From: Kribbella capetownensis
GTDB lineage: Bacteria > Actinomycetota > Actinomycetes > Propionibacteriales > Kribbellaceae
Length of the DNA stretch: 64,000 nt
NCBI RefSeq assembly: GCF_004331485.1
Contig: NZ_SJKD01000001.1
Coordinates: 1,860,001-1,924,000, forward strand
Reading direction: 5' to 3'
Shown here piece by piece: positions 45,088 to 47,796 of this stretch (its first letter is position 1; each line of letters starts with the position of its first letter). Under the pieces are notes generated by a model. That model made no database searches. It was given only the letters and a program-made list of their open reading frames with translations, and had not been told where the DNA came from. Both the position numbers and the translations under genes were made by a program.

Positions 45088-45121
45088 CTCCCACGCTGGT
45101 TCACGAACCGGCACCACCCTG

Positions 45122-45207
45122 GCGGGTTGCCCGAGCGGCCAAAGGGAGCAGACTGTAAATCTGTCGGCGTATGCCTACGCAGGTTCGAACCCTGCACCCG
45201 CCACCAG
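45122..45207 (+). tRNA. tRNA-Tyr (anticodon GUA)
   Basis: The acceptor arms GGCGGGT (45122-45128) and ACCCGCC (45197-45203) pair, followed by ACCA with the CCA end encoded. The anticodon loop CTGTAAA gives GUA. The T-arm GGTTCGAACCC is standard and the variable arm is long, as expected for a bacterial tRNA-Tyr. Confidence 0.95.
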
Positions 45208-45302
45208 CACGAAAAACAGCCCCTGACCTGCGGAGACGTGGTCGGGGGCTGGTTCGTTGTGGGGCGGTAAATCTGGAGACTTTCGGGGGTCGGGTCGGGA
45301 GA

Positions 45303-46055
45303 ATGGCCGGCGTGGATGAGGTTGAGGTTGTTGTTGCTCACAGTGAGCGGGCGACGCTGCGGGTGGGGGACGTGTTTCTGAAGGTTGATGGTGATCAGAC
45401 GCGTCTGGACGTCGAGGTCGAGGCGATGGGGTTGGCGCCGGTTCCGACTCCGGAGGTGTTGTGGCGGAGGCCGCCTGTACTGGCGCTTGCAGCGGTCTCG
45501 GGGACGGCGCTCGGCGTTCTTGGGGAGCCGTCGAGTGCGTCGGCGGAGGCGTGGGCTGCGGCGGGTGCCGCCGTACGGACGTTGCACGACGCGTCGCTGC
45601 CGCCGTGGCGTAGTCAGGGCATCGACGAGATCGCGGCGCACCTCGACGGCGAATGCGAGTGGCTCGTCGCGAACGGCGTCCTGCCCGCCGACCTGGTCAG
45701 GCGGAACCGCGAGATTGCCGAGGTTGCGCTCCGGCCGTGGAAACCGGTGTTCACGCACGGGGACCTGCAGATCACCCACGTGTTCGTCGATGGTGACGAG
45801 GTCACGGGTGTGATCGACTGGTCCGAGGCGAGCCAGGGCGATGCGATGTTCGACCTCGCCATTCTGACGCTCGGGCACGAGGAGCGCCTTGCCGACCTCC
45901 TCGCCGGCTACGGCACCGACGTCGACCTCGACGTGATCCGCGCGTGGTGGTCGTTGCGAAGCCTGGGGGCGTCCCGCTGGCTGATCGAGCACGGCTTCGA
46001 CCCAGCCTCGCCAGGCTGCGAGTTCGAGGTGCTCAGATCCCAGATGTCAGGCTGA
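45303..46055 (+). CDS. APH-family phosphotransferase
   Basis: A 250-residue protein with the catalytic loop FTHGDLQITHVFVD and the metal-binding Asp in VTGVIDWSEAS. The N-terminal lobe is compact with a Lys in DVFLKVDGD. It is smaller than the APH-like kinase at 44 kb and not closely similar outside the motifs. GGGAGA lies immediately before the ATG; a GTG three codons later is possible. Substrate unknown. Confidence 0.84.
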   Translation: MAGVDEVEVVVAHSERATLRVGDVFLKVDGDQTRLDVEVEAMGLAPVPTPEVLWRRPPVLALAAVSGTALGVLGEPSSASAEAWAAAGAAVRTLHDASLPPWRSQGIDEIAAHLDGECEWLVANGVLPADLVRRNREIAEVALRPWKPVFTHGDLQITHVFVDGDEVTGVIDWSEASQGDAMFDLAILTLGHEERLADLLAGYGTDVDLDVIRAWWSLRSLGASRWLIEHGFDPASPGCEFEVLRSQMSG

Positions 46056-46151
46056 TGCCCGCCGCATACCCCGGCATGCCCGCGGGAATAGGGGTGGGTC
46101 AGGCTGGAGTTGGCTGTTACGTCGGAGTGTGAGCGCGAGAGAGAGCAGGCG

Positions 46152-47255
46152 ATGAAGCCCACTGAGTTCGTGAAGGTGAACGGTCAGTTCTGGGGGGAGC
46201 ACCTCAAGGGGGTGGGGGAGCATCTGGCCGGGAGTCACCGGAACGAGCTGCCGGGGCCGTTGCTGTTTCCGCGGATGATGGTACTGACGGAGACGCCGGA
46301 CTGGAACATTCTCGAGCTGGTCGGGGTGAGCCGGGAGTACCGGTCGCTGGACGTACGGCGGCGGAAGGCGGCGAGCGTCGAGGAGTACTTCGGACTCGGC
46401 GACGGCGCGGCTGTGGTCGCATTGCCCGGCGAGAACCTGTTCAAGGACGCCACCGTCGCGACCGAGGTCGGCCGGCGGGAGCTGGTGGATCGGTTCCCGG
46501 GTGCGGACAAGATGCTCGGCAACGAGTTCGTCGGGCCGGGTGAGCAGCTCCTGCAGTTCGCGCCGGGCAACTACTCGCTGTTCGACCGGGTCCTGCTCGT
46601 GCACACCGTCGGCGCGTCGATCCGGGTCCACTGGACGTTCTTCGCGCTCGCGATCCACCGGTCCGAGCCGGCCGACAAGTATCTCGCCTTCCTGCGGAAC
46701 TACGCGCAGGCCGCGGACCACCTCGACCCGATCGGCACCCTGAGCGTGCCGGTGGGCGATCTGGATCTGAAGGGTTCCCCGTTCGCCAGCACGTACCTCG
46801 GACACGGCCTGCCGGATTCGACCGTCGACCGGTTCCTCCAGGACAACGAGAGCATCCTGCTGTCGGCGTTCGACGCGACCCGGCTGATCCGCCGGCCGTT
46901 CCTCGAGCGGCAGGAGGACGGCGACGCGCTGCAGCCGGACTTCATCCTCGAGACCGCGGACGGCAACCACATCGTTGGCGACCTCGGCCTCCCGCTGCTG
47001 GAGGGCAAGAAGCACCACCGCACGACGTCGGTGCAGGACGGCGCGGCCGCCCTCGCCCGGTACGCGGACTACTTCACGTCCCCCGAGCACCGTGCCTTCG
47101 CGCAGACGAAGTACGGCGTCGAGATCAGCGACCCGCGCAAGCTGCTGGTGATCGGCACCCAGGACACGGTCAGCCCGGCCGACGTGACCGACGCCGCCAT
47201 CGAGATCGTCGACTACGACTCCATCCTCCGACTCCACCTGGCCGCGAACTCCTGA
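46152..47255 (+). CDS. Shedu-like (DUF4263-like) protein with altered nuclease motif
   Basis: The C-terminal 150 of 367 residues follow the pattern of Shedu anti-phage nucleases: FLQDNESIL (228-236), QPDFILETADGN (261-272), then a strand-motif region, a helix with ALARYADYF (300-308) and the strand PRKLLVIG (328-335). Where active members have an (E/D)LK-type motif after the PDF element, this protein reads DLGLPLLEGKK (277-287), so the usual catalytic Lys seems replaced by Gly. The N-terminal 210 residues have no recognised domain. The assignment is from memory of the family pattern; a degenerate PD-(D/E)xK fold is the most likely reading. Confidence 0.55.
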   Translation: MKPTEFVKVNGQFWGEHLKGVGEHLAGSHRNELPGPLLFPRMMVLTETPDWNILELVGVSREYRSLDVRRRKAASVEEYFGLGDGAAVVALPGENLFKDATVATEVGRRELVDRFPGADKMLGNEFVGPGEQLLQFAPGNYSLFDRVLLVHTVGASIRVHWTFFALAIHRSEPADKYLAFLRNYAQAADHLDPIGTLSVPVGDLDLKGSPFASTYLGHGLPDSTVDRFLQDNESILLSAFDATRLIRRPFLERQEDGDALQPDFILETADGNHIVGDLGLPLLEGKKHHRTTSVQDGAAALARYADYFTSPEHRAFAQTKYGVEISDPRKLLVIGTQDTVSPADVTDAAIEIVDYDSILRLHLAANS

Positions 47256-47274: not shown

Positions 47275-47796
47275 GTGGAGTACTTCGTGTACGGACGGGA
47301 CCGGGTCGGTGGGTACGACGTCAAGGTGAGCCTCAACGAGGAGCACTGGGCGTTCATGGATCGGTACGCCGAGGAGCTCGTCGCCCGTGGTCCGACGCTC
47401 ACCGCGGACGGCGAGGAAACGACCGGCAGCCTGCACATCGTCGATCTCCCGGACGATGACGCCGTCAACACCTTCGCGTACGACGAGCCGTACTACCGCG
47501 CCGGTGCCTTCGACTCGATCCAGCTCCACCGTTTCCGCAAGCACGTCGGCACCACCATGTGGGACTTCGCGAACGCCGTCGAGGGCTACAACCGCTACCT
47601 CGTCATCACCCAGGACGAGCCGCAGCCGCTCACCTCACCGCACCTCATCATGTACGGCGACCTCCTCAGCCTCGACGCGGGCAAACACCTGGGCCGTGCC
47701 GCGCTCGTCGAAGCTCCCGAGCCACAAGCCGCCGCAGCGCTCGTCGAGGCACCCGACGCCGAAGTCCTCCCGTGGGAGTTCGGCGGCCGCCGCTGA
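47275..47796 (+). CDS. YCII-related domain protein
   Basis: The first about 95 of 173 residues follow the YCII pattern (FVYGRDRVGGYDVKV, EEHWAFMDRYAEEL, RGPTLTADG, TGSLHIVDLPDDDAVNTF, EPYYRAGAF). The rest is a C-terminal extension ending in Ala/Glu-rich repeats (LVEAPEPQAAAALVEAPD). YCII domains resemble muconolactone isomerase-type ferredoxin folds. No enzyme activity can be assigned. It begins 19 bases after the Shedu-like gene. Confidence 0.82.
   Translation: MEYFVYGRDRVGGYDVKVSLNEEHWAFMDRYAEELVARGPTLTADGEETTGSLHIVDLPDDDAVNTFAYDEPYYRAGAFDSIQLHRFRKHVGTTMWDFANAVEGYNRYLVITQDEPQPLTSPHLIMYGDLLSLDAGKHLGRAALVEAPEPQAAAALVEAPDAEVLPWEFGGRR

Follow-up and report, generated by a model that had tools for sequence, protein, structure and literature searches.

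The gene at positions 46152 to 47255 of the analysed window (the whole stretch of 64,000 nt, taken from a Kribbella genome) probably encodes a non-cleaving descendant of the Shedu nucleases, which is fixed in Kribbella, has lost its catalytic residues and is predicted to be transcribed by a SigR/SigH-type sigma factor. Its closest ortholog was that of K. pittospori (97% protein identity). The reading frame of 367 aa and the motifs PDF (residues 262–264), D-L-G (277–279), EGK (284–286) and ALARYADYF (300–308) were found as given in a preliminary description of this DNA. The features used below, in window coordinates, are as follows:

46085..46111, + strand: predicted SigR/SigH-type promoter, GGAAT-N19-GTT, starting 67 bases before the start codon (sequence pattern).
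46152..47255, + strand: Shedu-derived protein, 367 aa, cysteine-free (translation; full-length PADLOC SduA match at 4e-34; cysteine count).
46152..46805, + strand: N-terminal part, residues 1–218, the more conserved half (invariant-residue count, pairwise identity).
46815..47252, + strand: DUF4263-like nuclease-fold region, residues 222–367, lacking catalytic residues (structure and motifs).
46980..46988, + strand: former (E/D)xK site, D277-L278-G279 (ortholog alignment).
47004..47024, + strand: conserved basic loop GKKHHRT, residues 285–291 (similar loop in motif-intact relatives).
47275..47796, + strand: YCII-domain gene, 19 bases from the Shedu-derived gene (PF03795, 4.7e-15).

The Shedu-like C-terminal region proposed in the preliminary description was borne out, beyond chance resemblance, by the PADLOC SduA model PDLC00377, which matched residues 4–364 of the window protein (E 4e-34) and 36/36 orthologs. 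A Pfam search of the window protein returned no family at E ≤ 1, PF14082 included; ortholog L038 was matched by PF14082 at 7e-4, below the family cut-off. An AlphaFold2 model built from 36 orthologs (mean pLDDT 73.9) was most confident in the C-terminal region and at residues 70–170, and poor at residues 1–40 and 188–218. When this model was compared with the PDB using Foldseek, E. coli SduA took ranks 1 and 2 (8ps5 and 8ps4, E 1.3e-4 and 4.2e-4). The best VIA-align result was Z 7.3 over 155 aligned residues, all in the C-terminal half, at an rmsd of 4.5, and the B. cereus Shedu chain 8ti9_B was aligned at Z 5.8; these values are moderate, and according to the tool Z < 8 may reflect merely a common arrangement. 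The C-terminal half is thus predicted, at moderate strength, to fold like the solved Shedu nucleases of the PD-(D/E)xK type. Among solved structures no sequence relative was found. Comparison with a viral structure library gave weak matches only, several of them to PD-(D/E)xK proteins, and the N-terminal domain predicted alone (mean pLDDT 45) was too poor for a structure search.

The catalytic lysine, described beforehand as replaced in this protein (DLG), is missing from nearly all orthologs: position 279 is E in 15, A in 11, G in 4, R in 4, Q in 1 and K in 1 of the 36 aligned sequences, and the case goes beyond an oddity of one genome. At position 277, D was found in 20, R in 15 and Q in 1, the R-L-E form being fixed in one 15-member Kribbella clade, and D263 is invariant (36/36). 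Position 300, that of the conserved Shedu helix glutamine of the QxxxY type, is Q in 5/36 orthologs and A in the window protein, and it is deleted in three; the combination of D/E, K and Q was found in 0/36. In orthologs L055 (6001–6984), L051 (6001–7092) and L053 (6001–7092) the nuclease part has internal deletions in the neighbourhood of what was once the catalytic helix. When changes were mapped by parsimony on a tree built from the N-terminal part, position 279 changed 7 times and position 277 twice. In several clades the codon at the lysine position is a single change away from AAG, which suggests lysine as the ancestral state. Ortholog L038 (genome G019) retains D-L-K; the loss is therefore not universal in Kribbella, and L038 is a natural comparison for the lysine-less orthologs.

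For comparison, 28 other DUF4263 proteins (L056, L110–L132, L134 and L096–L098, with the fragment L133 left out) were aligned and read by eye; the acid was kept in 28, the lysine in 24 and the glutamine in 27. Four of them, L125, L126, L127 and L129, belong to a different actinobacterial family and read E-I-E with the helix glutamine kept; judged by these motifs, they form a second Shedu-like lineage without the catalytic lysine. The site reads EIK in B. cereus Shedu, a second B. cereus chain sequence (8ti9/8tia) having A for E. In Vibrio SduA (VcSduA) defence is abolished by K557A, as stated in a passage of PMC12137116. In view of the lost motif residues, the comparators and this mutant, we take the Kribbella proteins, with the possible exception of L038, to be non-cleaving, and the alternative of lost cleavage, raised in the preliminary description, is supported.

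The distribution of selective constraint was found to be inverted relative to other Shedu proteins, the N-terminal part being the better conserved half. Residues 1–205 include 67 that are invariant among the orthologs; of the 146 residues of the nuclease part, only 20 are. N-terminal exceeded C-terminal identity in 596 of 630 Kribbella pairs, whereas in other Shedu proteins C-terminal identity was the higher in 12 of 13 hand-picked pairs (exception L110/L111). Since dN/dS over all 630 pairs was saturated, 12 hand-picked close pairs were used, for which pooled values of 0.19 (N-part) and 0.28 (C-part) were obtained; both parts are therefore under purifying selection.

An ortholog was present in 37 of the 38 genomes of the Kribbella family within an order sample of 391; the remaining 353 genomes gave no ortholog. 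The family genome without it is G028, where the DUF520/tRNA-Tyr region was also found to contain no copy. Of the 35 ortholog stretches that were fetched and inspected by eye, 33 show DUF520, YCII, MarR or LLM, or several of these markers, close to the gene, and L023 and L025 show none of them. The gene is therefore a core gene with shared flank markers that is kept vertically in Kribbella, and it does not have the accessory, patchy distribution typical of Shedu. A GTDB scan gave 22 loci, 21 of them named Kribbella and one named Streptomyces sp. SID13031, which matches Kribbella genome G036. Outside Kribbella, the same N-terminal part was found in none of the plasmids, phages, IMG/VR, the order sample or the phylum draws, and in the class draw the N-terminal profile matched 1 of 266, namely the window's own protein. 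In Kribbella jiaozuonensis the gene lies on two contigs (L072, L073) with equal identity, either by assembly duplication or as a real second copy. Genome G003 carries, as a second Shedu, L056 (3317–4468), which has an intact D-L-K and a PF14082 match at 1.5e-11 and is probably an active accessory copy.

The reading frame begins 945 bp beyond tRNA-Tyr (45121–45206), as had been pointed out with the suggestion of a landing site for acquired genes; the position is correct, and the gene as tRNA-site cargo was rejected, being a core gene with shared flanks, with cargo such as APH lying between the tRNA and the gene. This APH-family phosphotransferase gene (window 45171–46055) had its sole tblastn match among the ortholog stretches in L021 (88%) and for that reason looks like tRNA-site cargo. 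Downstream, the YCII gene is likely co-transcribed with the Shedu-derived gene, as judged from the same strand and the short gap. Of the 36 ortholog loci, 20 have a YCII gene behind the Shedu-derived gene in the same orientation (at a distance of about 1.45 kb in L036), and in 10 of these 20 its frame opens at the stop codon of the Shedu-derived gene. As it is not universal, YCII is no required partner of the Shedu-derived protein.

Upstream, GGAAT-N(17–20)-GTT, which the preliminary description does not mention, was present in 37/37 orthologs, starting 60 to 99 bases before the start codon and with exactly N19 in 34; in shuffled upstream regions the N19 form was matched at 0.0014 each. The 37 sites all fit GGAATA-N(17/18)-GTT, the form of SigR/SigH promoters of the thiol-oxidative stress response. 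No SOS-like pattern was matched upstream of the gene. Among 11 other Shedu genes, the SigR-type pattern was found in none within the upstream stretch examined (shorter for L113). In the window genome, the stricter GGGAAT-N(18,19)-GTTG gave 17 matches vs 0 for a reversed control. Among the genes that follow these matches are those for a sigma factor of the SigH_actino type (sigR), thioredoxin reductase (trxB), DnaK, Lon, HflX, type B L31, RbpA, an ErpA-type protein, a DsbA-like protein, DUF427, YceI, an LLM protein, WhiA and the Shedu-derived protein. Behind matches L135 and L149 no gene could be assigned convincingly, and the SnoaL gene behind L141 is 134 bases away. L31 and RbpA are SigR targets. 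The sigma factor scored 340.7 bits with TIGR02947 (cut-off 251.55), and the pattern lies upstream of its own gene. According to passages of the cited papers, the recognition sequence of Streptomyces SigR is GGAAT-N18-GTT, and other stress-responsive genes have the N19 spacing (PMC2375139), the SigR regulon includes thioredoxin genes, chaperones and proteases (PMC5472188), and HflX is a member (PMC4921905). From the form of the promoter we infer that the Shedu-derived gene belongs to the SigR/SigH regulon.

Cysteine is absent from all 36 orthologs (13,235 residues), which would fit work in an oxidising cytoplasm. Some neighbour genes (DUF520, YCII, LLM), 5 of 27 comparator Shedu proteins (L133 dropped) and L056 are likewise cysteine-free, for which reason this is a weaker argument.

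Several other explanations were weighed against these data. It is quite improbable that the protein is an active Shedu nuclease which still cuts DNA ends with a lysine shifted to the GKK loop (K286/K287), a form of the replacement by EGK that the preliminary description had considered. K286 is K in 33/36 and K287 in 34/36 orthologs, and D263 is kept throughout, but EGK is no motif of the family, as only 2/36 orthologs, that of the window and its sister, have it contiguously; in 16/36 the motif acid has given way to R or Q, and the helix glutamine is lost in 31/36. Loops similar to GKK (VGKxNR, VGRxNR) moreover occur in relatives from Pantoea and Azospirillum whose E-F-K is intact, so the loop is not compensatory, and the shifted lysine was rejected on these grounds. 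A non-cleaving defence protein, protecting against phage by binding DNA ends or as a sensor while another effector cuts, would accord with the Shedu ancestry (PDLC00377 match) and with the sensing of DNA ends by Shedu N-terminal parts, as described in a passage of a review (PMC12904381). We consider it unlikely: the gene is core and vertical, not accessory, its stress-type promoter is common to housekeeping stress genes, and no partner is kept in all genomes, YCII being present in 20/36.

That an old defence gene is here decaying and has no function is a view that the loss of catalytic residues by several different routes and some C-terminal deletions might recommend. We hold it to be very improbable, since the frame is open in 36/36 aligned orthologs, the promoter is present in 37/37, dN/dS lies well below 1 for the N-part and the C-part alike, and in 10 loci the YCII frame opens at the stop codon. 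A role as regulator or immunity factor for co-resident Shedu nucleases could be imagined, as Shedu oligomers might take up an inactive paralog. Against this, PF14082 matched nothing in the window genome and was found in only 8 of 38 genus genomes, a count that is a floor, the search having missed L056. This role appears extremely improbable.

The reading of a non-cleaving, stress-controlled Shedu descendant is accordingly preferred. A Shedu (SduA) immune nuclease would have become fixed in the Kribbella lineage, and the descendant would have lost its DNA-cleaving residues. Under thiol-oxidative or proteotoxic stress, SigR would switch the gene on, and the cysteine-free protein would remain functional in the oxidising cytoplasm. 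The N-terminal domain would be the bearer of the conserved activity, and the inactive nuclease fold, whose basic loop is conserved, may serve as a non-cutting DNA-binding or oligomerisation module; to judge by the basic loop, the protein perhaps binds DNA. With the cutting residues lost and a promoter of the thiol-oxidative-stress type, the immune enzyme thus seems to have been turned into a non-cutting stress protein. A more specific version is rather doubtful and is put forward as a tentative proposal: the nuclease would have been domesticated near the base of the genus, its site dismantled (with D-to-R and K-to-E fixed in the 15-species clade) and its gene wired into the SigR regulon, and the cysteine-free protein would hold or shield DNA ends, or another substrate of the N-terminal domain, during oxidation of the cytoplasm.

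The gene provides a testable example, spread through a whole genus, of how a defence nuclease of prokaryotes can become a stress-controlled core protein that no longer cleaves. It also illustrates that defence-annotation models can call such genes Shedu even when the active site has been lost. The literature search, with the two main Shedu structure papers outside its scope, gave no paper on a catalytically dead or SigR-controlled Shedu, and no Shedu-type member was found in the SigR/SigH regulon literature searched. In its C-terminal fold, motif layout and single-gene, two-part architecture the Kribbella protein resembles Shedu SduA (E. coli 8ps4/8ps5, B. cereus 8ti8), but it differs from these nucleases in lacking the acid–lysine–glutamine set, in being encoded by a core gene with a stress-type promoter and in having the better conserved N-terminal part. 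PADLOC PDLC00377 matches it over its full length, yet this is a detection model that does not test the active site, and for that reason the Kribbella genes are matched despite the lost site. The nearest C-terminal layout (KYG, PRRW.VVG, YF helix) was found in the PDLC00383-type Shedu of Pantoea and Azospirillum plasmids (L096, L097), which differ in their intact E-F-K and glutamine, their plasmid location and an N-terminal part that was unmatched in the searches. With the actinobacterial SigR/SigH regulon (GGAAT-N18-GTT), the Kribbella promoter has in common its form and spacing range, which it shares with sigR and trxB.
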